64,000 nucleotides of DNA from Theionarchaea archaeon (GTDB taxonomy: Archaea; Methanobacteriota_B; Thermococci; Methanofastidiosales; SZ-28-30), in contig JACVGT010000018.1 of NCBI GenBank assembly GCA_018992685.1, forward strand, positions 186,001 to 250,000, given 5' to 3'. Below the pieces are notes generated by a model that saw only the letters and a program-made list of their open reading frames with translations, had not been told where the DNA came from and did no database searches. Position 1 is the first letter of the stretch. Each line of letters begins with the position of its first letter. Both the position numbers and the translations under genes were made by a program. Below, piece after piece: positions 13,712 through 37,676 of the stretch.

Positions 13712-15526
13712 ATGCACGGATGGAATGGAAAGATCCTGCGAGTGAACCTAAACGAAAAAACATCTGCGGTTCAGTCCTATGATAGAGATTTCGCTCTCAA
13801 CTATCTGGGAGGTCGAGGATTTGCCATCAAGATACTTTGGGATGAACTCCCTGCAGGCACTGATCCTCTCTCTCCCCGGAACAAGCTGATTTTTACAACA
13901 GGCCCTCTGACCGGGCTCCCTGTAGCCAGCAGCGGCAAGATTGTGGTGGCGGCCAAGAGCCCTCTGACCAATGGATACGGTGATGGTAACCTGGGGTCAC
14001 GAGCTGCAGTCACATTGAGAAAGGCAGGGTACGAAGTCCTCGTAGTGGAGGGAAAAGCAGATTCTCCAGTCTACATCCTGATTGAAGATGATTCTGTTGA
14101 AATAAAGGATGCAAAAGACCTGTGGGGAAGAGGAACGTTTGATGTAGAGGATGACCTTACCAGAACCCATGGGAAAAGTGCAGGGGTCTTGCTCATCGGC
14201 CAGGCAGGGGAGAATCTGGTGAAATTCGCTCCTGTCATGTCACAGAAGGGAAGAGCAGGCGGTCGTCCTGGAATGGGTGCAGTCATGGGTTCAAAGAACT
14301 TGAAAGCAGTGGTCATCAGAGGAACGAAAGATATCCCTCTTGCAGATCCTGAGAGCCTTAAAGAACTTGGAAGAGATGCATATAAAGACATCAGAGAGAA
14401 GGAAAGCTATGACTTCTGGATTCGGCAGGGCACCATGCAAGCTTTGGAATGGGCTAACGAGAGCAGCTGCCTCCCAAGCTACAACTTCAAGGAGGGAGTC
14501 TTTGATGAAGCAAAAGGCATTGATGGGTACAAAGTAGAGGAACTGAAGGTGGATAGACGGGGATGCCCCAACTGCAACATGCAGTGCGGTAATGTCATCA
14601 AGGACATAGAGGGTCAGGAGGCGGAACTGGACTACGAGAATGTCGGATTGCTGGGCTCCAACATCGGAATTGGAAAATTGAAAGAGGTTGCCCTCCTAAA
14701 CAGACTGGCAGATGACTGGGGAATTGACACTATATCTGCTGGAAACATCATCGGCTTTGTCATGGAGGCCTCAGAAAAGAACCTACTATCAGAGACCTAC
14801 AGGTGGGGTTCAGTAGATGATGCGCGCTCTCTCTTGGAAGCTATAGCATTCAGAAAAGGATTTGGAAAGACCCTGGCTGAGGGTGTGAAACATACCGCAG
14901 CCACTATTGGAAAGGGCAGTGAGAAATGGGCGATTCAGTGCAAGGGGCTTGAGTGTTCTGCATATGACTGTCATGCAGCACCTGGGATGGCTCTGGCCTT
15001 TGCCACCTCCAGTATTGGTGCTCACCACAAGGATGCATGGTTGATCTCCTGGGAGATAGCAACGGATCGGTCTGGATACAACAGGGAAAAAGTGGCAAAG
15101 CTCATCGAACTGCAACAGCTGAGAGGAGGAGTCTTTGAAGGGTTGGTGGCCTGCAGGCTGCCCTGGATTGAAGTTGGGTTTGCTCTTGATTGGTACCCCA
15201 AGTTCCTGAAGGCAGCTACTGGAGAGAATCTCTCCCTGGATCAGTTGAAAACCGCAGGTGATCGCATCTTTGCATTGATAAGATGCTTCTGGAAGCGGGA
15301 AAATCCGGATTTTGGGCGTTCCTGGGACATGCCGCCTGAACGGTGGTTTACTGAACCATTAACCAAGGGACCCATGAAAGGTACAAAAGTGGACCGCGAA
15401 GGGTATACAAGGATGCAGAACTGGTATTATGAGATAAGGGGATGGGACAGTAACGGAATTCCCACCAGGAAGACGCTGGAATCGCTGGGGTTGGCCTATG
15501 CGGCCGAGGCTTTGCACATTGCATGA
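13712..15526 (+). CDS. Tungsten-dependent aldehyde:ferredoxin oxidoreductase (AOR family)
   Basis: 604 residues, full length for the family. The AOR N-terminal pterin domain is clear (LGGRGFAIKILWDELP and FTTGPLTGLPV). The [4Fe-4S] ligands are C285, C288 and C292 (CPNCNMQC), and C481 (ACRLPW) is the likely fourth ligand. Such enzymes oxidise aldehydes to acids with ferredoxin, using a tungsto-bispterin cofactor, commonly in amino-acid or sugar fermentation; the exact aldehyde is unknown. The last 4 bases overlap the MoaD-like gene. GGTGAT precedes the ATG and a TATA-like box lies upstream. Confidence 0.95.
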   Translation: MHGWNGKILRVNLNEKTSAVQSYDRDFALNYLGGRGFAIKILWDELPAGTDPLSPRNKLIFTTGPLTGLPVASSGKIVVAAKSPLTNGYGDGNLGSRAAVTLRKAGYEVLVVEGKADSPVYILIEDDSVEIKDAKDLWGRGTFDVEDDLTRTHGKSAGVLLIGQAGENLVKFAPVMSQKGRAGGRPGMGAVMGSKNLKAVVIRGTKDIPLADPESLKELGRDAYKDIREKESYDFWIRQGTMQALEWANESSCLPSYNFKEGVFDEAKGIDGYKVEELKVDRRGCPNCNMQCGNVIKDIEGQEAELDYENVGLLGSNIGIGKLKEVALLNRLADDWGIDTISAGNIIGFVMEASEKNLLSETYRWGSVDDARSLLEAIAFRKGFGKTLAEGVKHTAATIGKGSEKWAIQCKGLECSAYDCHAAPGMALAFATSSIGAHHKDAWLISWEIATDRSGYNREKVAKLIELQQLRGGVFEGLVACRLPWIEVGFALDWYPKFLKAATGENLSLDQLKTAGDRIFALIRCFWKRENPDFGRSWDMPPERWFTEPLTKGPMKGTKVDREGYTRMQNWYYEIRGWDSNGIPTRKTLESLGLAYAAEALHIA

Positions 15527-22289: not shown

Positions 22290-23402
22290 CTAGCCCACAA
22301 GGGACAACAATACTCCAGCAGCAATTGCTGAACCGATAACTCCCGCCACATTGGGACCCATAGCATGCATTAGCAGGTAGTTCTTGGGGTTCTCCTTCAG
22401 CCCGACCTTTTGAACCACCCGTGCTGCCATGGGAACTGCTGAAACCCCTGCTGCTCCAATCAGTGGGTTAACCTGCCCCCTGGTGAGAAAGCACATGAGT
22501 TTCCCAAACAGCACACCTGCTGCAGTGCCAAAACAGAATGCAATTAGCCCCAGAACGATGATTTTAATGGTCCCCATTGTCAGAAATTGGGAAGCAGTCA
22601 TGGTAGCCCCCACTGATAATCCCAGAAAGATGGTGACCAGGTTGATCAGTTCATTTTCAGATGCTTTCCACAACCTGTTGACCACTCCTGATTCTCTGAA
22701 AAGATTTCCCGCCATGAGCATGCCAATCAGGGGAGTAGCAGAAGGCAGAAGGAGTGCAGTCACGATGGTGATGGCAATGGGAAAAACAATCTTTGTCTTC
22801 TTGCTCACAGGTCGCAACTGAACCATCTCAATACTGCGTTCCCTCTTCGTGGTAAGTGCCCGCATGATGGGGGGCTGAATAATTGGAACCAGAGCCATGT
22901 ACGAATACGCAGCCACTGCCACTGGTCCCAGAAGATGTGGAGCGAGCTTGCTGGTTAAATAGATGGCAGTTGGACCATCTGCCCCTCCAATAATCCCTAT
23001 AGAAGAAGCTTCTGGTAGACTGAATCCAAGGTACAGTGCACCCAGTAGCGTCCCGAAAATTCCAAACTGGGCAGCAGCTCCCAGCAGGAAAGTCTTTGGA
23101 TTGGCCAGTAGAGGGCCAAAATCAGTGAGAGCGCCCACCCCCAGGAAAATTAGCGGAGGAAAGATACCATATCTAACTCCCTGATAAAAGAAATAGAGCA
23201 GTCCTCCCTCTTCCATCAATCCTGCCAGGGGAATATTGGTTAGAATCGCACCAAATCCAATTGGCAGGAGCAGTAATGGCTCATATTCCCTGGTGATGGC
23301 TAGATATATGAGAACACAGCCGATACCGATCATGACAACACTTCCCAGTGTGAGGTTGCTGAACCCTGTCAACTGAAGAAACTCACGCATCACGTCCTGC
23401 AT
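22290..23402 (-). CDS. mmdB: Sodium-translocating decarboxylase, beta subunit
   Basis: 370 residues, nearly all in hydrophobic segments. [14 protein letters not shown] carries the conserved intramembrane aspartate used for Na+ transport in OadB/GcdB/MmdB. It releases CO2 from carboxybiotin and pumps Na+ outward. The ATG at 23402 has GAGGTGA five bases before it, preferred over a GTG at 23411. It is the last gene of the mmdA-oadG-biotin carrier-mmdB operon. Confidence 0.93.
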
Positions 23403-23413
23403 TTTAATCACCT

Positions 23414-23830
23414 CTAAGAAATGATTGCCAGTGAATCCCCTGTATTCACAGCCTGCCCTTCTTTCACCAGAATTCTCTTTAAGGTGCCTGTAAGTGGGGA
23501 CGATATCTGGTTTTCCATCTTCATGGCCTCCAGCGTGAACAGAAGGTCGCCTGCTGAAACCGTCTTCCCTTCCACAGCATGGATTTTGAGAATGGTTCCC
23601 GGCATAGGGGAAGGCACTGATCCTGGAGACATGGCTCTGGATGTGGGAATAGAGGGCGATGAAACAACGACGGGTCCCTGAGCGTGCAGGGTTTTCTCTT
23701 CCCTGACCCTCTCTTCCTGGATTGAGACTTCATATGGGACTCCGTCCACGATTACTGAATAGGAGGGTCCTTCTCCTTCTATTTCCACTTCATAGGGCTT
23801 GCCTTCAATTTCGACTGTGTATTTGGTCAT
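23414..23830 (-). CDS. mmdC: Biotin carrier subunit of the decarboxylase
   Basis: 138 residues. The C-terminal 70 form a biotinyl domain with EAMKMEN, K104 being the biotinylation site. The first 45 residues are a short beta-rich part ([16 protein letters not shown]) and the middle is a proline/serine linker, as in archaeal and bacterial MmdC/PycB-type carriers. It overlaps the OadG-like gene by 26 bases, so translation is coupled. Confidence 0.93.
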
Positions 23831-24086
23831 GGTATGATCTCCCTTGTTGTATCCACAAACTCTCTGCTACGGTGTCAAACCGGATGAAACCTTTTCTTTT
23901 CAGGTGGTAGGTCAGAGCACAGGCTATCACCGCCTTCACACGTGGCTCTGGCTCACCATGTGCAATCTGCTCTGCAGGCTCAGTCCTGAACATTCGTTCC
24001 AGTCCCCAGGCGATGACTGCTAAAAGCCCCAGAGCGGAAAACACGACCCCCATGCCCACCGCTGTCAATATGTATCCTGATACCAT
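23805..24086 (-). CDS. OadG/MmdD-like small membrane subunit
   Basis: 93 residues with one membrane segment (about 5-28, TAVGMGVVFSALGLLAVIAWGLERMF) and a soluble tail, the shape of OadG/MmdD, which holds the decarboxylase complex together at the membrane. Position between the alpha subunit and biotin carrier supports the call. Confidence 0.8.
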   Translation of the reverse strand: MVSGYILTAVGMGVVFSALGLLAVIAWGLERMFRTEPAEQIAHGEPEPRVKAVIACALTYHLKRKGFIRFDTVAESLWIQQGRSYHDQIHSRN

Positions 24087-24097
24087 GGACCATCCAC

Positions 24098-25642
24098 CTA
24101 CAACGGGATACTCCCGTGCTTTTTTCGGGGCCTGTCTTCTCTCTTTCTATGTAACATCTTTACTGCCTGTATGAGATGGTATCTAGTTTTTCTGGGGTCA
24201 ATGACGGCATCTACAAACCCACACCTGGCTGCTACATACGGATTTGCAAACCTCTCCCTGTATTGTCTCACTTTTTCTTCCCGCACTTTCTCGGGGTTCT
24301 CTGCCGCACTGATCTCTCTCCTATGGGCGACATTAACTGCACCTTCAGGCCCCATGACAGCAATCTCTGCCTGTGGCCAGGCCAGTACTAGATCAGTTCC
24401 GAGCTTCTTGCTGCACATGCATACGTAGGCTCCCCCGTATGCTTTTCTCACAATCAACGAAATCTTGGGAACATTGGCTTCAGCATAGGCGAACAGCATT
24501 TTAGCGCCGTGACGGATGATTCCGCCATGTTCTTGGGACACACCCGGAAGAAACCCAGGAACATCCACAATAGCAACCAGAGGAATGTTAAAAGCATCAC
24601 AGAACCTGATGAATCGTGCACCCTTGTCAGACGCATCGATATCCAGACAGCCAGCCAAGACTGCAGGTTGGTTCGCTACAATCCCCACCACTTTCCCGTT
24701 GAGGCGAGAGAATCCCACCACCAGGTTCCCGGCAAACAGTGCATGAACCTCTATGAACTCACCATTATCAACGACACTGCAGATGATGTCCTTGACATCA
24801 AAGACTTTCTGTGGATCTTCTGGGACAACTGTTAACAAAGACTCATCCTCCCTGAAAGGAGAATCAGTGACCTCTTTTTCTGGTGGGTCTTCCACATTAT
24901 TCGACGGTAGGTATTCCAGCAGCTTTCTCACCTTCAAGAGACACTCTTTTTCAGTCTGATCAAAGAAGTGGGCAACTCCGCTGCGCGTGCTGTGAGCGGC
25001 TGCGCCTCCAAGTTGCTCGAACGTCACCTCTTCACCGGTGACCGTTCTGATTACATCCGGCCCGGTGATGAACATGTGGGAAACTTGGTCCACCATGAAT
25101 ACGAAATCAGTGATCGCAGGTGAATAAACGGCTCCCCCTGCACAGGGGCCCAGAATGATAGAAATCTGTGGAATAACTCCTGAAGCAAGCGTATTGAACT
25201 TAAAAATCTCGCCATATCCCTCCAGAGAGGCCACACCTTCCTGGATGCGGGCTCCTCCTGAATCATTGATCTGTATGAATGGCACTCCGTTTTTCAAGGC
25301 CAGCTCCTGGGCATAGACAATCCTTCTGGCATGCATTTCTCCCAAGGAACCCCCCATTATTGTAAAATCCTGGCTTGCCACATACACCAATCGACCATCA
25401 ATGGTTCCACACCCCGTGACCACACCATCTCCCAAGAATTCTCTTTGATCGGCCACAAGGCCATGACATCCCTGGGAAATGAACATATCGATTTCCTCAA
25501 AGCTTCCCTCGTCAAGCAGGACAGAAATGCGTTCACGTGCCGTCAGTTTTCCTTTCTGATGCCGCTGTTCAATCCGTTCGAGTCCTCCTCCCAGGCAGGA
25601 TTCCTGCAGTTTTTCCTGGAGCTCCTTCAATTTTTCTTCCAT
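24098..25642 (-). CDS. mmdA: Methylmalonyl-CoA decarboxylase alpha / acyl-CoA carboxyltransferase subunit
   Basis: 514 residues of the PccB/MmdA carboxyltransferase family with both crotonase-like halves (GGSLGEMHARRIVYAQELALKNG; NDSGGARIQEG; later GVSQEHGGIIRHGAKM and KAYGGAYVCM). In an operon with beta, biotin and OadG-like subunits it is best read as the alpha subunit of a Na+-pumping methylmalonyl-CoA decarboxylase; a propionyl-CoA carboxylase role is the alternative. ATG 25642 lies 25 bases after a TATA-like box, so the GTG at 25657 is less likely. Confidence 0.92.
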   Translation of the reverse strand: MEEKLKELQEKLQESCLGGGLERIEQRHQKGKLTARERISVLLDEGSFEEIDMFISQGCHGLVADQREFLGDGVVTGCGTIDGRLVYVASQDFTIMGGSLGEMHARRIVYAQELALKNGVPFIQINDSGGARIQEGVASLEGYGEIFKFNTLASGVIPQISIILGPCAGGAVYSPAITDFVFMVDQVSHMFITGPDVIRTVTGEEVTFEQLGGAAAHSTRSGVAHFFDQTEKECLLKVRKLLEYLPSNNVEDPPEKEVTDSPFREDESLLTVVPEDPQKVFDVKDIICSVVDNGEFIEVHALFAGNLVVGFSRLNGKVVGIVANQPAVLAGCLDIDASDKGARFIRFCDAFNIPLVAIVDVPGFLPGVSQEHGGIIRHGAKMLFAYAEANVPKISLIVRKAYGGAYVCMCSKKLGTDLVLAWPQAEIAVMGPEGAVNVAHRREISAAENPEKVREEKVRQYRERFANPYVAARCGFVDAVIDPRKTRYHLIQAVKMLHRKREDRPRKKHGSIPL

Positions 25643-25662
25643 TACAGTTCTTTTCACTAGGG

Positions 25663-29773: not shown

Positions 29774-30913
29774 CTATCCCACTACATACGCTTCTCCAGT
29801 GATTTCCCCTTCAAACCGGCTCAAGGTAAGATCATCTATGGGCATGGATGGTTTCCCATCTACAATGAGCTCAGCAACTAACTCAGTAACCTTGGGGGCA
29901 ACCATGAACCCGTGTCCACTGTAACCATTGGCCTGGCAGAACCGATCTACCCCCTCTGTCCATCCCAGAATTGGTTGTGCATCTGGAGTAACATCATACA
30001 GCCCTGCCCACTGGCGGAGAACATTGAGATGACCAAAGGCAGGCACCAGCTCAACCATGGTCCTGGCCATTCGTTTCAAGAACCGCAGACTCCCTGAAAG
30101 GTTGTAGGACGATGGTTCTTCAGGGTCACCAATACCTCCAATGATAGAACCATGCTTCTGCTGTGAGAAGTATATTCCTGTCTTAAAGGATATGACCATG
30201 GGATCCAGTACGTGTTCCAACGGTTCAGTTACCAGGATCTCATGACGGTAGGGTTTATTAGGCAAATCTACCCCCACCATAGCAGCAATGTCTCTAGAAT
30301 GGGCTCCTGCAGCATTGACTACGGTGTCGGTCTTTACTGTTCCCTTATCAGTCCTTACGGCCTGAATATGACCATCTACAGCTACAATGTCTGTAACATT
30401 GGTGAATTTGTTGATCTCAACCCCCATCTCCTGCGCTTTCCTTGCATATCCATGAACTACCCGGAAGGGGTTGGCATGTCCATCAGTCTGGCAGAACGTT
30501 GCTCCTGCTATGGGATCCGTATTCAACAAAGGGACAATCTCCTGAGCTTCTGCGGGAGTGATAAACCTGCTGTGGAGGCCCAGCGAGTTCTGCAACCTGA
30601 CGTTCTTCCTGAACTGATCCACGTCGTCCTCATATGCAATGATCAGGTACCCTCCCTGTTCATACTCAATGTCTGTATCAAGTTCCTCTGAGAGCTGCTC
30701 AAAAAGGCGCACACTTTCCATTGCCAGAGCAATATTGGCTTCTGTCGTGAACTGCTGTCTGATACCCCCACCGCACCGGCCGGAGGCTCCCGTACACAGA
30801 CCCCCCCTCTCCAGAACTACAACATCGGTCAGTCCCTTCTTCGCCAGGCTATAAGCAGTTCCACATCCCGTGACCCCTCCTCCTATGATCACTGCTTCTG
30901 CCTTTTCTCTCAT
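29774..30913 (-). CDS. DAO-family FAD dehydrogenase, beta subunit of proline dehydrogenase/sarcosine oxidase type
   Basis: 379 residues with an N-terminal GGGVTG (11-16), the GASGRCGGGIRQQF flavin loop, and a late RQWAGLYDVTPDAQPILG and ANGYSGHGFM, all typical of the catalytic beta subunit of multisubunit sarcosine oxidase and archaeal PDH. It oxidises the C-N bond of a secondary amine or amino acid. It is the last gene of four overlapping genes and starts 4 bases inside the BFD-like gene. L-proline is the most likely substrate given the ornithine cyclodeaminase at 39.5 kb, but sarcosine or another amine is possible. Confidence 0.85.
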   Translation of the reverse strand: MREKAEAVIIGGGVTGCGTAYSLAKKGLTDVVVLERGGLCTGASGRCGGGIRQQFTTEANIALAMESVRLFEQLSEELDTDIEYEQGGYLIIAYEDDVDQFRKNVRLQNSLGLHSRFITPAEAQEIVPLLNTDPIAGATFCQTDGHANPFRVVHGYARKAQEMGVEINKFTNVTDIVAVDGHIQAVRTDKGTVKTDTVVNAAGAHSRDIAAMVGVDLPNKPYRHEILVTEPLEHVLDPMVISFKTGIYFSQQKHGSIIGGIGDPEEPSSYNLSGSLRFLKRMARTMVELVPAFGHLNVLRQWAGLYDVTPDAQPILGWTEGVDRFCQANGYSGHGFMVAPKVTELVAELIVDGKPSMPIDDLTLSRFEGEITGEAYVVG

Positions 30914-31173
30914 TCTTCGTCACCTGCAAATAGTGATAGGGACAGGGGCTGTAAGGGTGGTCTGGTCGTGGGACGTGATACTTCTGCTGCAGATTTTCCA
31001 GTCTCCCGGGCTACCACCCTGGTTATCAGAGGTATACATGTCCGTCCCTGACAGGGCCCCATGCCGCACCTCAATACGTGTTTTATTTCGTCCAGCGTGG
31101 TATATCCCTGGTCAATGGCCTTCAAAATGTCTTCTTTGGTTATGTCCTCACATCTGCACACCATTTCCGTCAT
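30910..31173 (-). CDS. BFD-like [2Fe-2S] subunit
   Basis: 87 residues. C6, C8, C41 and C46 (VCRCED and GPCQGRTC) form the BFD-like [2Fe-2S] site; an extra C36 is present. Residues 60-87 form a proline-rich tail. In related operons this domain is fused to a larger subunit; here it is a separate electron carrier between the two flavoproteins. It overlaps both neighbours by 4 bases. Confidence 0.88.
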   Translation of the reverse strand: MTEMVCRCEDITKEDILKAIDQGYTTLDEIKHVLRCGMGPCQGRTCIPLITRVVARETGKSAAEVSRPTTRPPLQPLSLSLFAGDEE

Positions 31174-31643
31174 TGAATCCTCCTCACATTGCGGACCTTC
31201 ATAGCCAGATCTCTTGGAACTAGAACAGATAAGACAGCAGTCTTATTCTTGTGAACTCTCACTCTTTCAATCTCACCCTTTCCGCACGGAGTTCCTTCTC
31301 TATCCAGGAGGTCAACTCGTTCTCCCTTTTCCGGAAGAGGGATGAATTCGTAAGGCAGCATCACCAGTGCTTTGTCCTGAGAATAGTCAAAATCCACCAC
31401 AAAGACTGCCAGCCCAGGGCATTCTGCAATGCAGGCGCCGCACCCCCCACACTTCTCAACAATGAGCTGTGGTCTGCCCACCAGTGAATCCTTAACCAGG
31501 GCATCAGAAGGACAGGCTGTCACACAGGGGTCGCAGGGGATGTCTTCAACACATTCAACAATGGCTATCTTTCCTTTGAGTTCAGGCGTCATCTCTTTCA
31601 ACTGAGATTCTGTAAGCACTCCTGTCTTACGGTGTTCATTCAT
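31170..31643 (-). CDS. Ferredoxin-like subunit with two [4Fe-4S] clusters
   Basis: 157 residues. First motif C31, C37, C40, C44 (CVEDIPCDPC, with a longer first gap), second C65, C68, C71, C75 (CGGCGACIAEC). The C-terminal 75 residues are a beta-rich domain of unknown role. Such ferredoxins accompany archaeal and clostridial PDH-like flavoenzymes. It overlaps the alpha subunit by 8 bases. Confidence 0.88.
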   Translation of the reverse strand: MNEHRKTGVLTESQLKEMTPELKGKIAIVECVEDIPCDPCVTACPSDALVKDSLVGRPQLIVEKCGGCGACIAECPGLAVFVVDFDYSQDKALVMLPYEFIPLPEKGERVDLLDREGTPCGKGEIERVRVHKNKTAVLSVLVPRDLAMKVRNVRRIQ

Positions 31644-33060
31644 GCAATTCCTCCATTATGGCAAATACTCTCTCCTTTCCCTGACGGGCCCTTTCCCCAA
31701 AGGATCCTGAACGTAACAGCCGTAATTCTTCGTATGATTCTTTCGACTCCTTTTCTGTCTCAAGTGTTGATAGTCCCAGAGCTTTCACGCAGGAGAGGGC
31801 TGCTATTTTCCCCTCCATCATGGCAGTATTGGCTTCACCGATTCCTGCTGCATCCCCTGCAGCATACATACCCTTGACAGTCGTTTCCATTGCGGGAGAG
31901 TGTACTGGTGTATTTCCACCCAGTTCAGGGATGTGAGCAATCCTGCACCCTGCCTGACAGAAGAATTCAATTGAGGGCGATAACCCTACTGCCAGACAGA
32001 TTGTATCCACATCGAATTTTCTCTCGGTTCCAGGTATGTGATTCCAGTCTTTATCCAGTGAGACTGTGACTGCACCGGTCACGTACTCTTCTCCCAGGGC
32101 TTTCAAAATGCTGGTAGAGGTATAAATGGGAACACCGCACCGCCTGACCTTGGCTGCGTGTACGTGGTATCCTCCGATACGCGGAAGAGCCTCCACAACC
32201 CCCACTACTTTCACACCTGCCTGCAATAGCTGGTAGCTGACAATCAATCCCACATTTCCTGCCCCAACCATGAGTACTGAATTTCCGGGTACAATACCAT
32301 ATACATTCATGAGAGTCTGGACTGCCCCTGCTCCATACACACCAGGAAGGTCATTATTTTCAAAAAGCAGCATATTCTCAGAAGCACCTGTTGCCACAAT
32401 GACTTTCTCAGCCTCCAATTCAGCAAGGGTTCCATCTTTCACCAGGACAAGCCGGTGGCCCCTGTCATTGTAGTGCCCCACGACAGCTGCCTGCAGCATG
32501 ACGAAGGACTCAGCCTCCCGGTACAAGATCTTGGCAATCTCTGTTCCTCTGGTACCTGCACGTTCCCTGCTTGATCCAAAAAACTTGTGAGTCTGCTTAA
32601 CCAACTGTCCACCCGCATGGGGATTCTCATCGATGACCAGAACAGAAGCCCCATATGCATGGGCAGTCACGGCTGCATTGAGTCCTGCAGGTCCTGCTCC
32701 TATCACCGCAACTTGTGTTTTCATGTGGCTGATATGGGATTTCTTCGGCCCTGTAAACGGTTTCAAGACACCCTTGTGCTGTGATTCAACCACCATGCCC
32801 TCCTCAACCAGCGTGACACAGGTTTTAACATTGGGCACACCGTTGACATTCATCATGCACGAGGCACACTTCCCGATGGCACAAAAAAACCCCCTGGGCC
32901 TGGAATAGGTAATACTCCGGGAGAGGACTTTGATCCCTGCTGCATGGAGTGCTGCTGCAATAGTCTCTCCTTCATATGCTTCAAGTGGCCCTCCATTGAA
33001 GGTAAAATGGATTACTCTCTTTCGTTGAAAACTAAGGAGTGGATGCTCTGTGATTCTCAT
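31636..33060 (-). CDS. FAD/NAD(P) oxidoreductase alpha subunit with N-terminal [2Fe-2S] domain (SoxA/HcnA-B/PDH-alpha type)
   Basis: 474 residues. Residues 1-95 are an Fer2_4-type domain (C60, C65, C68, C81). Then comes a two-nucleotide-binding flavoprotein with VIGAGPAGLNAA near 117 and VGAGNVGLIVSYQL near 260. This fusion corresponds to the alpha subunit of heterotetrameric sarcosine oxidase, hydrogen cyanide synthase HcnAB and archaeal proline dehydrogenase. It is the first gene of a four-gene operon (alpha, ferredoxin, BFD, beta) that feeds electrons from amine oxidation to NAD(P)+ or ferredoxin. Confidence 0.88.
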   Translation of the reverse strand: MRITEHPLLSFQRKRVIHFTFNGGPLEAYEGETIAAALHAAGIKVLSRSITYSRPRGFFCAIGKCASCMMNVNGVPNVKTCVTLVEEGMVVESQHKGVLKPFTGPKKSHISHMKTQVAVIGAGPAGLNAAVTAHAYGASVLVIDENPHAGGQLVKQTHKFFGSSRERAGTRGTEIAKILYREAESFVMLQAAVVGHYNDRGHRLVLVKDGTLAELEAEKVIVATGASENMLLFENNDLPGVYGAGAVQTLMNVYGIVPGNSVLMVGAGNVGLIVSYQLLQAGVKVVGVVEALPRIGGYHVHAAKVRRCGVPIYTSTSILKALGEEYVTGAVTVSLDKDWNHIPGTERKFDVDTICLAVGLSPSIEFFCQAGCRIAHIPELGGNTPVHSPAMETTVKGMYAAGDAAGIGEANTAMMEGKIAALSCVKALGLSTLETEKESKESYEELRLLRSGSFGERARQGKERVFAIMEELHE

Positions 33061-33245: not shown

Positions 33246-33539
33246 TCAGTAGATCTCCAGCAGGCGTCTTACAGCATTCTCTGCAATTCCTTCCAGATCA
33301 TCAAGGCACCTGTAGATATCCCCATCCACAATAGAATAGTAGATTGATTTTCCTTCCTTCCTATCTGTCAGTACATTCGCATCTTTAAGAATTCTCAGAT
33401 GCTGTGATACGTTGGACTGAGAGGTGCCGATGTAGGGCACAATCTCGCAAACACATTTCTCCCCATCCCGCAAGAATTCCAGGATATTCAACCGAGTTTC
33501 GTCACTTAATGCCTTCAGAATCCTGAGCTTAAGATGCAT
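33246..33539 (-). CDS. arsR: ArsR-family transcriptional repressor
   Basis: 97 residues of a winged helix: LRILKALSDETRLNILEFLRDGEKCVCEIV is the family start, ISQ-like recognition helix TSQSNVSQHLRILKDANVL, and wing RKEGKSIYYSI. ECVCE-like DGEKCVCEI gives the CxC metal site of the ArsR/SmtB alpha-3 type. It is divergent from acr3 and should release DNA when As(III) or Sb(III) binds. TATA box TTTAAATATAAG about 20-30 bases before the ATG. Confidence 0.93.
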   Translation of the reverse strand: MHLKLRILKALSDETRLNILEFLRDGEKCVCEIVPYIGTSQSNVSQHLRILKDANVLTDRKEGKSIYYSIVDGDIYRCLDDLEGIAENAVRRLLEIY

Positions 33540-33540
33540 A

Positions 33541-33632
33541 ATAATATTAGTGATGACTTATATTTAAACCTACGGGTACTGTCTCTCAACCGATCAATAA
33601 GTATATAAATACATCATTATATATTGGCCAAT
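33541..33632. promoter_or_regulatory. Divergent arsR/acr3 promoter region with a palindrome
   Basis: Leftward TATA box GGTTTAAATATAAG (33570-33557) serves arsR; rightward AAGTATATAAATAC (33599-33611) serves acr3. The perfect 10-bp palindrome ATTGGCCAAT (33623-33632) sits where the acr3 transcript should begin, a candidate ArsR operator. Confidence 0.5.
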
Positions 33633-33670
33633 CATGCTGGACATCAACAAGATCTGTGAGGAGGAAGAGA

Positions 33671-34798
33671 ATGAAAGAAAAAAAACTATCCATCTTTGAG
33701 AAATACCTGACTGTATGGGTTCTTGGCTGTATTGCGGGAGGCATCCTCCTGGGAAAGCTGGCACCTGGAGTCGCTCTCGCTCTGGATTCATTCTCGGTCT
33801 ATCAGGTTTCAGTTCCGATTGCAGTGTGTCTCTTCTTCATGATGTACCCCATTATGGTGAAGATCGATTTCGCAGAGGTGGTGAGAGCTGCCAAAACCCC
33901 CAAACCTGTGGGACTCACTCTGTTCATCAACTGGGCAATTAAGCCTTTCACCATGTACCTGATCGCTTCTTTCTTTCTGGGGGTTGTGTTCAGAGGATTC
34001 ATTCCGGGAACTGAAGTAGTGAAGACAGGACAGGAGGTTGAATTGTGGAGAAGCTATATATCTGGTGCAATTCTGCTGGGGATTGCTCCCTGTACTGCCA
34101 TGGTTCTCATGTGGAGTTACCTTGCTAAAGGGAATGATGGGTTAACCCTGGTCATGGTGGCTATTAATTCTCTGACAATGCTGGTGCTGTATGCTCCTTT
34201 GGGAGGATTTCTCTTGGGAGTCAACGCAATGCCCATTCCCTGGCAAACTATTGTGCTGTCTGTAACCTTCTATGTGGCAGTGCCGTTGGTTGCAGGGTAT
34301 TTCTCCCGAAAACAGATCATCAAGTCCAAGGGAAAGCAGTGGTTTACTGAGAAATTCTTGCATCTCCTTACTCCAGTAAGCATTGTTGCACTTCTGGCGA
34401 CCCTGGTATTACTATTCGCCTTCAAGGGGGAGGTAATTGTTGAGAACCCCCTGACCATTCTGTGGATTGCTGTCCCTCTGTTCGTTCAGACAGTCGTAAT
34501 CTTCAGTCTGGGATACTTCGTGCTGGCCCGTCTGCTAAATCTATCCTATCACGATGCAGCCCCGTCCGCAATGATAGGTGCTTCAAACCATTTTGAGGTG
34601 GCAATTGCAACCGCCACGATTCTGTTCGGGCTATCATCAGGTGCATCCCTGGCTACTGTTGTCGGGGTGCTCATTGAAGTGCCTGTCATGTTGATGCTGG
34701 TTTCTGTCTGTAAGAGAACATGCCATCTCTTCTCTGAATGCAATCTGGACCTGCCTCAGTGTCACAACGATTCTGAGGCAGATAGTACTGCTCATTGA
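33671..34798 (+). CDS. acr3: Arsenite efflux permease Acr3
   Basis: 375 residues with about ten membrane segments. [19 protein letters not shown] holds the conserved thiolate C141 of Acr3 transporters. It exports arsenite as an As(OH)3/H+ antiporter. GAGGAGG lies seven bases before ATG 33671, so a GTG at 33656 is not used. It is divergent from arsR and convergent with the ArsG-like gene. Confidence 0.95.
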
Positions 34799-34818
34799 CA
34801 GGATCTTCCCTTTTTTCC

Positions 34819-35631
34819 TCAGGAAATTTCCCCGCTATTCTTTGACCTTCTCTCTGCAAGTTCCCGTGCTATTACCAATCCCACACCTATTATGCCTACT
34901 ACAAGGGGAAGCCACCTGATGAGCGTGGGGTCAGAACTCACACAAGGGACAATATAGGATATGCCCACACTGATGAGGACAACTCCCAGGACACTGCTGA
35001 CCTCCCTCCACAGATGAGAAAGCCTCTGGAGAGCGGTCCTCGCCCTGGTAGCCCCGAAATACAGCAGACCTGTGTACACAAGTATTGGCACATTGACTCC
35101 TAATCCAAAAAAGAGAGGCAGAGAGTACCCTTCTGATACCTGGACTGCCAGCGGGATCAACATTCCAAAGAAGAGCGCAGCAGAGTACGGGCAGAAAGCA
35201 AGCCCCAGCAGGAGTCCCAGTACCAGTGCTCCCACAAGACCCATGGTATGGGTCTTGAACATCAATCGGGCAAGAATCCCTCCTCCAAAGCCCCGATTAA
35301 TGGAAATCACGTTCAAGAACAGCGCACCGAAGAGAATGAGCATGCATCCCAGCAAAAGACTTCCTGCAGTCTGAGAGAATAGCGCAATCTTGCCGATGGT
35401 GTGACCTGCAGAGATCATCAGACCACCAATGATCAAGAACGTGATGATTCTTCCCAGACTGATAAGGGTTCCCACCACCACAGCATACTTGGGCAAAACC
35501 ATTGTGCGGGATATGAAGGCTGCTCCTGAAACATTGGCGGCCAGTGCACAGGGACTGACTGCTGTCACCAGCCCCAGAAAGAAGGCAGTGGCAATTGGGA
35601 TCTGGTTTGTTGCTTGTGTCCAATCAAACAC
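34819..35631 (-). CDS. arsG: ArsG-family (CcdA/DsbD-like) membrane permease
   Basis: 270 residues with about seven membrane segments. The paired cysteines sit in TAVSPCALAANVSGAAF and GLAFCPYSAALFFGMLIPL, the pattern of the ArsG branch of CcdA-like proteins, which exports aminobenzylarsenicals in bacteria. The ArsF- and ArsE-like genes directly upstream strengthen this. The GTG at 35631 has GGAGGT six bases before it and is preferred over an ATG at 35667. A CcdA-type electron carrier is the alternative. Confidence 0.8.
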   Translation of the reverse strand: MFDWTQATNQIPIATAFFLGLVTAVSPCALAANVSGAAFISRTMVLPKYAVVVGTLISLGRIITFLIIGGLMISAGHTIGKIALFSQTAGSLLLGCMLILFGALFLNVISINRGFGGGILARLMFKTHTMGLVGALVLGLLLGLAFCPYSAALFFGMLIPLAVQVSEGYSLPLFFGLGVNVPILVYTGLLYFGATRARTALQRLSHLWREVSSVLGVVLISVGISYIVPCVSSDPTLIRWLPLVVGIIGVGLVIARELAERRSKNSGEIS

Positions 35632-35647
35632 GACATGACCTCCCAAT

Positions 35648-36082
35648 TCACAGCTGCTGTAGCGCATCGTCCAGCACTGTTTTCAGCAGGCTAATATAGC
35701 GGTCGTGGTCAAAACAATACTGCCACACTTCTGCATTTTCATTGATATGGTCAGTACCTTCTTTCACTATGTTAATGTACAACGAGGCGCCATACGCGTC
35801 GTATTTACTGGCCAGCTCCGGATTTTCCTCAACACAAACATCCAGGTATCTGATCGTCTCGGATTCAAATTCTCCTGGGAAGAATTCTTTGATAGTTTCT
35901 TCCGCCCACTTGCCCACGTTTATGCAACAGGTACACTGATTGATCCTGTGAAAATGCACCACCAGAATCTGGGATTCCTTTGTCACATCAGTTGACATGT
36001 CAGAGGATGGTTCCTCTGGGCTGTCTTGTAGGCACAGGCTGAAAGCCATCAAGATTCCGAGCAGGATAAGAGCGCGTCTCAT
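35648..36082 (-). CDS. arsF: ArsF-family thioredoxin-fold lipoprotein
   Basis: 144 residues. A hydrophobic start ending in FSLC17 is a possible lipobox. The rest has a thioredoxin-like pattern with VVHFHRINQCTCC (C50, C52, C53) and KWAEETIKEFF, matching the family named ArsF (nitrophenyl-compound nitroreductase subunit). Its real catalytic role is little studied. ATG 36082 overlaps the stop of the upstream thioredoxin gene (ATGA) and has GGAGATGG before it. The 40-residue upstream frame extension is not used. Confidence 0.8.
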   Translation of the reverse strand: MRRALILLGILMAFSLCLQDSPEEPSSDMSTDVTKESQILVVHFHRINQCTCCINVGKWAEETIKEFFPGEFESETIRYLDVCVEENPELASKYDAYGASLYINIVKEGTDHINENAEVWQYCFDHDRYISLLKTVLDDALQQL

Positions 36083-36345
36083 TCCGAACCATCTCCTAAG
36101 ACCTTTTTCACCGCGCTTTCCAGGGTTTCGACAGACGGTATCCTGCCAACCTCCACTGTCAGATCGTTGACCATTACAGTGGGAGTCATCATAATGCCAC
36201 ATTCCTCAGCCTCCTCTGAAAACACATCGCACTTCTTCACAGTTACTCCTTCAAATTTCTGAGCCACTTCAGCTGCAACCTTCTCTGCACCTTTGCATTT
36301 TGCGCAGCCAGGCTCAGGACCGAACACACGGATAACGACCTCCAT
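36079..36345 (-). CDS. Small thioredoxin-like disulfide protein (ArsE-like)
   Basis: 88 residues with a glutaredoxin-like thioredoxin fold. Active-site GCAKCK (C14, C17), cis-Pro in MTPTVMVND. It has the form of redox-active disulfide proteins of the MTH895 kind and takes the place of ArsE in arsEFG operons. Extra cysteines C39 and C49 are present. It probably reduces ArsF or ArsG, or handles the arsenical itself. Confidence 0.8.
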   Translation of the reverse strand: MEVVIRVFGPEPGCAKCKGAEKVAAEVAQKFEGVTVKKCDVFSEEAEECGIMMTPTVMVNDLTVEVGRIPSVETLESAVKKVLGDGSE

Positions 36346-36366
36346 TTTACCACCTCCTCATTTATT

Positions 36367-36639
36367 TCATTCTCTGGGTTGATCTCTTTTTAGATCGGTG
36401 ATGAAAGCCTTGATCTCCTTGATATCAGGAAATGAAATGGCACCTTGGGGACATAGCGACTGGCAATTGGAACAGCCCACCACACACTGATACGGGTGAT
36501 CCACTTTCGCGGTAGTGCCTTCCATTTGGTATACAGAATGAGGACAGAACTCAAAGCACGTCTTGCACGCGGTACACTTCTTTTCATCAATGGTAGGAAA
36601 CCACGGGATTTTTTCCCTCTGAATATTGCGCCACATCAT
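36367..36639 (-). CDS. Ferredoxin with two [4Fe-4S] clusters
   Basis: 90 residues. C22, C25, C28, C32 and C52, C56, C59, C63 form two cluster sites; the second has a CxxxCxxCxxxC spacing. It lies between the ArsP-like and thioredoxin genes, with its ATG overlapping the arsP stop. It may supply electrons for reduction of an arsenical by the ArsEF proteins; this is an inference from position. Confidence 0.88.
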   Translation of the reverse strand: MMWRNIQREKIPWFPTIDEKKCTACKTCFEFCPHSVYQMEGTTAKVDHPYQCVVGCSNCQSLCPQGAISFPDIKEIKAFITDLKRDQPRE

Positions 36640-37676
36640 GCTATCCCTCCATAGACTATTCCTGAGATACTGGCAAAGAGGATTACGAGTCCAATATACG
36701 TGAGTGTTTTCTGCGTCCCCAGAACTTGTCTGATGGCCAGCATATTAGGCAGGGAAAGAGCAGGTCCCGCCAACAACAAGGCCAATTCTGGTCCCTTTCC
36801 CATCCCAAGGGAGACCAGGGAGTTTACAATGGGGACCTCAGTGAGTGTTGCAAAATACATCAATGCTCCTGCAACAGACGCAATCACATTTGCTGATACA
36901 GAATTTCCTCCCACAAATCGGGACACATAGGCTGGAGGCAGCCCTTGTTTGATAATACCGGCTACAAAGACACCGACAAGTAAGTAGGGTATGATTAGCT
37001 TGGAGAGCTGCCACGTTTCGCTCATCCACAGCCTCGTCTCTGAACGATCTTGCCACGCAATCACAACATATATCAGCACTACCAGCAATCCAATGACCAC
37101 CGGCCACTTCACCACCCCCGGCAAGGTGGAAGCTCCAATTACCAGAATGAGCACCAAATCCACAAAGAATAGCCATTTCCTATACGATCTATCTTCAGAT
37201 TCAGTAAAGCTCTTGCTCTTGGGTAGAGGGGTGATGCTGTCTTCTTTCTGATAGATAAAAGCCATGATCAGCCCGATGACTACTGCCATGAGGATCGCAA
37301 GGACAGCCCTTGCTACTCCAATTTCGACTCCCAACACACGGGCGGTAAACACAATGGCCAGAATATTGATGGCTGGGCCTGAGTATAAGAAGGCTGTGGC
37401 AGGTCCTATCCCTGCCCCTCTCTTGTAGATTCCTGCAAACAATGGAATGACTGTGCATGAGCAGGCAGCCAGAATGCATCCAGAAACGGAAGCTACAGGA
37501 TATGACACATATTTCTTGGCCTGGGCTCCAAAATATGCAAGAACCGATTGCTTGGAGACAAAAACAGCTATTGCTCCAGCAATGAAGAACGCAGGCACCA
37601 GACAGGTAACCACATGTGCCTGCAGGTAATCGAGGAGTTCAAGAACTCCTGCCTCGAGTAGGGTTACGACATTCAT
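36636..37676 (-). CDS. arsP: ArsP/DUF318-family permease
   Basis: 346 residues with about eight membrane segments. C67, C72 and C74 in SGCILAACSC, followed by SGPAINI, are the conserved features of the DUF318 permeases that include ArsP, an exporter of trivalent methylated and aromatic arsenicals. It is the first gene of a five-gene leftward unit with ferredoxin, ArsE-like, ArsF and ArsG. GGTGGAT before ATG 37676. Confidence 0.85.
   Translation of the reverse strand: MNVVTLLEAGVLELLDYLQAHVVTCLVPAFFIAGAIAVFVSKQSVLAYFGAQAKKYVSYPVASVSGCILAACSCTVIPLFAGIYKRGAGIGPATAFLYSGPAINILAIVFTARVLGVEIGVARAVLAILMAVVIGLIMAFIYQKEDSITPLPKSKSFTESEDRSYRKWLFFVDLVLILVIGASTLPGVVKWPVVIGLLVVLIYVVIAWQDRSETRLWMSETWQLSKLIIPYLLVGVFVAGIIKQGLPPAYVSRFVGGNSVSANVIASVAGALMYFATLTEVPIVNSLVSLGMGKGPELALLLAGPALSLPNMLAIRQVLGTQKTLTYIGLVILFASISGIVYGGIA

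Follow-up and report, generated by a model that had tools for sequence, protein, structure and literature searches.

ArsEFG of Shewanella putrefaciens was reportedly described in 2019 by Chen, Zhang and Rosen, who are said to have assigned ArsG as a permease for aromatic arsenicals. Here we compare with this and related systems an arsenic island at positions 33246-37676 of a 64,000-nucleotide stretch, the window (positions 186,001 to 250,000 of the forward strand of contig JACVGT010000018.1, assembly GCA_018992685.1), from a Theionarchaea archaeon of the Methanofastidiosales. The island encodes ArsR, Acr3, an ArsP-like permease, a ferredoxin and ArsE, ArsF and ArsG. We propose, with a probability of roughly 0.6, that it combines ArsR-controlled export by Acr3 and the permease with a transmembrane dithiol relay of DsbD/CcdA type, ArsE-ArsG-ArsF, because ArsF appears to be exported, ArsG resembles CcdA and carries a cysteine pair in its first and fourth transmembrane helices (TM1 and TM4), and a natural ArsF-ArsG fusion exists.

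The Shewanella system has the same three families (NF040494, NF040495 and TIGR00412) in the same order within an ars cluster; in contrast, ArsG and ArsE of the window fall below the curated cut-offs, and a ferredoxin and a PF03773 permease are present in addition. PMC9144182 describes ArsG as an efflux transporter, and ArsE and ArsF as conferring organoarsenical resistance; an exported ArsF is not reflected in the nitroreductase-plus-permease names that ArsEFG carry. A relay via CcdA-like proteins of ars operons was proposed in 2010, considering transmembrane electron flow for a like kind of gene set, and was then judged less likely since ArsC is cytoplasmic; here the exported ArsF would provide an acceptor on the outside. 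With CcdA/DsbD relays the locus shares a cytoplasmic thioredoxin, a polytopic protein with a TM1/TM4 cysteine pair, an exported thioredoxin-fold acceptor and a natural fusion of acceptor and membrane protein as in DsbD, whereas ArsG is a separate subfamily, its second cysteine precedes a proline (CP), and it sits at arsenic loci. Like the methylarsenite permease ArsP of Campylobacter jejuni, the window permease belongs to PF03773 and neighbors acr3, but it matches no curated ArsP model and its role as an organoarsenical exporter is putative. The Prevotella nigrescens plasmid NZ_CP072340, annotated by NCBI as arsR-arsF-arsG-trx-permease-arsC-acr3, has the same gene set apart from the ferredoxin, with an arsC and a different gene order. 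The gene combination itself is already annotated elsewhere; the new point is the proposed mechanism, a membrane redox relay.

ArsF, ArsG and the candidate relay

Homologs were compared in two sets. An ArsG-alignment scan across genomes returned at least 591 matching stretches, 539 of which encode relatives; the best 80 of the scan (L044-L123) and 12 members of the window's order made up a census of 92 loci, several of them short, whose neighbors were identified with profiles built for this analysis. The second set comprises 35 loci gathered via ArsF in two further phyla, to which the Formosa and Methanophagales genomes belong. Essentially all ArsF homologs examined appear to be exported proteins: a hydrophobic N-terminal export segment, mostly with a lipobox, is present in 83 of the 85 measurable ArsF of the ArsG-derived set, the two exceptions being L088, truncated by a contig edge, and L122, where the motif was mis-located, and in 34 of the 35 loci of the ArsF-derived set, the 35th having the segment in a shifted frame. 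A comparable N-terminal segment occurs in only 7 of 109 members of the control family, ArsE. Within the order, ArsF always bears either a signal that includes a lipobox-like cysteine or, in several members, a membrane anchor and then a Pro/Thr-rich stalk, and only F, H and CxxC are invariant. The AlphaFold2 model of ArsF is confident (predicted local distance difference test score, pLDDT, 84.6) and its best matches in the PDB are thioredoxins (E ~3e-4); a PDB sequence search with the ArsF and ArsG alignments gave no matches. Two variants of the gene were seen along the way. At L193:1492-2100 a frame shift, probably an assembly error, splits arsF between signal peptide and domain, and in Dehalococcoidia (L047:416-1363, L063:6979-7953, L072:6970-7959) about 170 extra residues, without a Pfam match, lie between lipobox and thioredoxin domain.

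ArsG aligns end to end with the CcdA of the same genome (hhalign probability 98.4 over 214 columns); the alignment probability with ArsP or Acr3 is below 0.5. Cysteines in TM1 (PC) and TM4 (FCP; LCP in three cases) are found in all complete ArsG examined, the conservation of the TM4 residue being best judged on the ArsF-derived loci. Forms of ArsG lacking the TM4 cysteine were considered and rejected, as sequences seemingly missing FCP carry LCP. The arsF and arsG genes adjoin in 31 of the 35 ArsF-derived loci, and in an Actinomycetota metagenome-assembled genome they form a single reading frame (L058:7524-8708), a signal-ArsF-ArsG fusion that scores above both curated ArsF and ArsG cut-offs and also matches DsbD_TM (PF02683, 41.5 against a cut-off of 27.1). 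Because this fusion lies behind a signal peptide, ArsF is predicted to be outside, on the N-terminal side of ArsG as in DsbD. Directly upstream of the fusion are a gene for a lipobox-bearing thioredoxin and two ArsE-like genes.

From the gene order, the families, the ArsF signal, the cysteine pair and CcdA homology of ArsG, the fusion and the recurrence of the ferredoxin, we infer electron direction, partners and substrate as follows. ArsR would control the island and Acr3 would expel arsenite, while the ArsP-type permease would expel a second arsenical, perhaps methylarsenite from the genome's ArsM. The cytoplasmic thioredoxin ArsE would hand electrons to the CcdA-like membrane protein ArsG, and ArsG in turn to the membrane-anchored, outward-facing thioredoxin-fold ArsF, which would reduce, or bind and hand over, an arsenical at the membrane's outer face. 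In this genus the ferredoxin would most likely be the electron source, possibly via a ferredoxin-thioredoxin reductase (FTR), in the presumed order ferredoxin-FTR-ArsE.

The island and its relatives

Divergent arsR and acr3 genes are followed by a minus-strand run, permease-ferredoxin-arsE-arsF-arsG, that heads toward acr3 and ends tail to tail with it, 20 bp separating the two genes; arsE, arsF and arsG are contiguous among the arsenic genes. Stop/start overlaps of 4 bp join permease and ferredoxin (36636-36639) and arsE and arsF (36079-36082). An earlier, sequence-only reading of this DNA had described the gene positions, the divergence, the five-gene run and both overlaps, and all were found as placed. 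Some gene starts may be refined: the mechanically called open reading frame of acr3 begins earlier, at GTG 33656; a GTG at 35631 behind GGAGG is a likelier start for arsG than 35667; and a longer mechanical frame of arsF, to 36202, is not likely to mark its true start. The CVC motif of ArsR lies at what we take to be the position of the As(III) site in R773-type ArsR. Rfam gave no match within the window, and sigma-70-type promoter counts in the window equal shuffled counts, as expected of an archaeon.

Table 1. Genes of the arsenic island, with positions in the window and scores (bits) on curated profiles.
Gene and product	Position	Strand	Profiles and sequence features
arsR, ArsR/SmtB-family repressor	33246..33539	-	NF033788, 97.6 (cut-off 55); motif CVC (GEKCVCEI); 95% identical in G020
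acr3, arsenite efflux permease	33671..34798	+	TIGR00832, 384.7 (cut-off 282.8); dN/dS 0.05
arsG-like, CcdA/DsbD-superfamily membrane protein	34819..35667	-	Best family NF040495, 177.1 (below cut-off 200); PF13386, 47.5 (cut-off 24.9); Cys40 (PC, TM1), Cys159 (FCP, TM4)
arsF, exported thioredoxin-fold protein (predicted)	35648..36082	-	NF040494, 64 (cut-off 60); N-terminal signal, lipobox-like FSLC; CTCC active-site-like motif after FH
arsE-like small cytoplasmic thioredoxin (CAKC), 'redox-active disulfide protein 2' family	36079..36345	-	PF13192 above cut-off; best family TIGR00412, 39.1 (below cut-off 62)
ferredoxin, two four-cysteine [4Fe-4S] motifs (CTACKTCFEFCP, CVVGCSNCQSLCP)	36367..36639	-	PF00037 and PF12838 above cut-off
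'arsP' (putative), PF03773 permease	36636..37676	-	PF03773, 270 (cut-off 32.3); AACSC motif

The profiles bear out the earlier call of an arsenic island, as Acr3, ArsR and ArsF score above their curated cut-offs. The proposed identities of ArsE, ArsF and ArsG stand in that the named family is the best match for each, and ArsF and ArsG are related to named Ars families, not to families without an arsenic link; the assignment is incomplete in that ArsF passes its cut-off and ArsG and ArsE do not, although ArsG of a relative in the same order (L036) reaches 201.2 bits on NF040495. Because ArsG and ArsE miss these cut-offs, ArsEFG of this archaeon is, by profile, a divergent member of the named families. 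The permease, the sole PF03773 gene of the genome, scores below the cut-offs of the nearest curated families (SO_0444 Cu/Zn exporter, 112 against 300; SaoE, 105 against 325). Its assignment is certain only at the PF03773 level, so that 'ArsP' is a putative label and not, as had been assumed, the name of an established organoarsenical exporter.

The genus has one further genome (L043, G020), and its gene order is identical, with an assembly gap interrupting arsG and the acr3 end; loss of arsG from that genome was considered and rejected, as the apparent absence is a run of N in the assembly. The ratio of nonsynonymous to synonymous substitution rates (dN/dS) between the two genomes is 0.05-0.34 across all seven genes, ferredoxin included; all seven are under purifying selection. 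Together with the conserved order, these ratios argue that the gene cluster is not a product of chance. ArsF is above its cut-off in 13 of 115 genomes of the phylum, every one in the window's own order. Other members of the order show two more arrangements: arsR-arsP-arsE(s)-arsF(s)-arsG in the family f4, and, in 'Candidatus Methanofastidiosum', arsF-arsG close to arsP, arsR, acr3, arsM and an arsC-like gene. In the tree, ArsG of the window clusters with those of f4 genomes in a deep, long-branched clade (support 100/99), apart from ArsG of Methanofastidiosum. Many relatives of the same class have weak matches to the ArsF profile (226-290 residues, E ~1e-5 to 1e-3, far below the cut-off), which look like protein disulfide oxidoreductases and were not counted. 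In f4 archaea and Dehalococcoidia, ArsE paralogs with CSGG replacing CxxC stand in tandem with a normal ArsE (L042:8738-8992, L036:6817-7071, L046:6415-6678).

Beyond the order, the same cluster is seen in Chloroflexota, Bacteroidota, DPANN and Methanosarcinales. Neighbors of ArsG among the 92 loci include ArsF (88), ArsE (83), ArsP (PF03773; 76), ArsR (76) and Acr3 (31), and, less often, rhodanese-like (13), arsM-like (11), arsC-like (10) and OsmC-like (8) genes; extra exported thioredoxins also recur. A scan of viral contigs with ArsG found no matches. Because the cluster recurs across bacterial and archaeal phyla, the combination is not, as the sequence-only reading had suggested, special to this archaeon; on this distribution, Acr3 with ArsEFG and ArsP is a common module of bacteria and archaea and no archaeal invention. 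Judged by its sequence, the island is real, looks functional and is a divergent example of an arsenic cluster that is widespread; the ferredoxin is its distinguishing part.

Side observations in the window concern genes outside the island, all identified by eye. Genes for FAD/2Fe-2S/4Fe-4S oxidoreductases, like hydroxyproline or glycine dehydrogenase complexes, adjoin arsR on the same strand (29774-33060), and genes at 22290-25657 for a beta subunit, a biotin carrier and a carboxyltransferase look like those of a sodium-pumping decarboxylase. A tungsten aldehyde ferredoxin oxidoreductase-like gene lies at 13712-15526; a similar gene neighbors arsP in Methanofastidiosum clusters and the ferredoxin in L230.

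Ferredoxin and electron supply

The window ferredoxin is the only copy of its subfamily in the genome, and the subfamily is rare: scoring the top 19-20 first-look candidates of each genome placed it in 11 of 247 genomes of one phylum and 5 of 251 of another. Its members occur in arsEFG clusters of Micrarchaeota (L071), Altiarchaeales (L099, with arsF-arsE), Dehalococcoidia (L063) and an unclassified bacterium (L120), and a ferredoxin fragment lies beside arsG in an actinobacterium (L045). A search with the ferredoxin only gave six contexts with acr3, arsA/arsD-like genes or arsR-arsP-arsE (L229, L231, L235, L239, L240, L241); in L230, L232-L234, L236-L238 and L242 no arsenic operon is evident in the immediate vicinity of the ferredoxin. 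Because several unrelated lineages have this rare subfamily at arsEFG or acr3/arsA/arsP loci, the ferredoxin is probably tied functionally to the arsenic island, as the sequence-only reading had supposed. An obligatory role in ArsEFG was rejected, as the ferredoxin is present in a minority of clusters. In L229, L231 and L235 it adjoins DUF169- or DGC-domain-like genes beside acr3/arsP, with no arsF or arsG, and these may represent a second ferredoxin-linked arsenic module.

Elsewhere in the genome, an FTR catalytic subunit above its cut-off is fused to a C-terminal rubredoxin-like domain (L254:1303-1800); its gene adjoins glutaredoxin-like and two-domain disulfide oxidoreductase-like genes. 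The arsenite methyltransferase ArsM is encoded at L246:1369-2277 (G000:C4; NF008823, 328.9 against a cut-off of 263), near a contig end and unlinked to the island.

Rival readings and significance

In the published reading, nitro-aromatic arsenicals are reduced jointly by ArsE and ArsF, after which ArsG pumps out the trivalent amino-aromatic products, making the island one for detoxification of aromatic organoarsenicals. This agrees with the names of NCBIfam NF040494 and NF040495 and with the functions that PMC9144182 gives to the three proteins. We nevertheless regard it as unlikely: essentially all ArsF carry an export signal, the L058 fusion joins ArsF to the N-terminal side of ArsG behind a signal peptide, ArsG is a CcdA homolog, and in anaerobes and DPANN archaea, which would be unlikely to meet synthetic nitro-arsenicals, the clusters lie with acr3, arsC and arsM. 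ArsG is more likely to carry electrons than arsenicals, and this evidence on ArsEFG favors a transmembrane dithiol relay over a cytosolic nitroreductase plus pump.

The same topology would also suit repair of envelope thiols or buffering of As(III), with ArsF as an outside dithiol, kept reduced by ArsE via ArsG, trapping trivalent arsenicals or repairing thiols outside the cytoplasm without arsenical turnover. The dithiol of a CxxC motif is a natural ligand of As(III), and rhodanese, OsmC and extra exported thioredoxins recur nearby; arsM and the PF03773 permeases (11 and 76 of the 92 loci) point instead to a specific organic or exported substrate. We hold this alternative to be somewhat more doubtful than the published one, although present data do not firmly distinguish it from an arsenical reductase. 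Very improbable is the form proposed by the sequence-only reading, in which the ferredoxin drives the reduction of methylated or aromatic arsenicals in the cytoplasm and ArsP then exports them, for although the ferredoxin recurs at arsenic loci and the genome has ArsM and FTR, ArsF is not predicted to be cytoplasmic and the cluster has no cytoplasmic arsenical reductase besides the thioredoxin ArsE; its pairing of reduction with export may stand, with exported ArsF and CcdA-type ArsG placing the reduction most likely outside the membrane.

Several points weigh against the relay. Relatives of ArsG include true exporters (the LysE clan). Its second cysteine is in CP, versus PC in CcdA, two alignment columns off, and its AlphaFold2 model failed (pLDDT 49.8) and was unused. 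Export signals were called from hydropathy and a lipobox pattern, not with SignalP. One of the two patterns behind L044-L123 includes FCP, which biases this set toward Cys159 but leaves the ArsF-derived set unaffected, and most arsEFG clusters lack the ferredoxin. Finally, NCBIfam names fix ArsG as an aromatic-arsenical efflux permease, following a published model cited in PMC9144182.

A broader version of the relay is tentative: instead of a nitroreductase with an efflux pump, ArsEFG across bacteria and archaea might be a reductase of arsenicals outside the cytoplasm, powered by electrons sent through the membrane, in this archaeon from ferredoxin, possibly by way of FTR, to ArsE, ArsG and then ArsF. 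It would act on arsenicals expelled by Acr3 and the PF03773 permease or arriving from outside. A literature search for the ArsF and ArsG family names found no paper, but subscription papers were mostly outside the search and this is no proof of novelty. If the relay is real, two widely spread database names, 'efflux permease' for ArsG and 'nitroreductase subunit' for ArsF, would put the chemistry in the wrong place. A DsbD-like arm sending reducing power outward, of which we have found no demonstration so far, would then be part of arsenic resistance, and the recurring ferredoxin would link arsenic detoxification to the low-potential metabolism of anaerobes.

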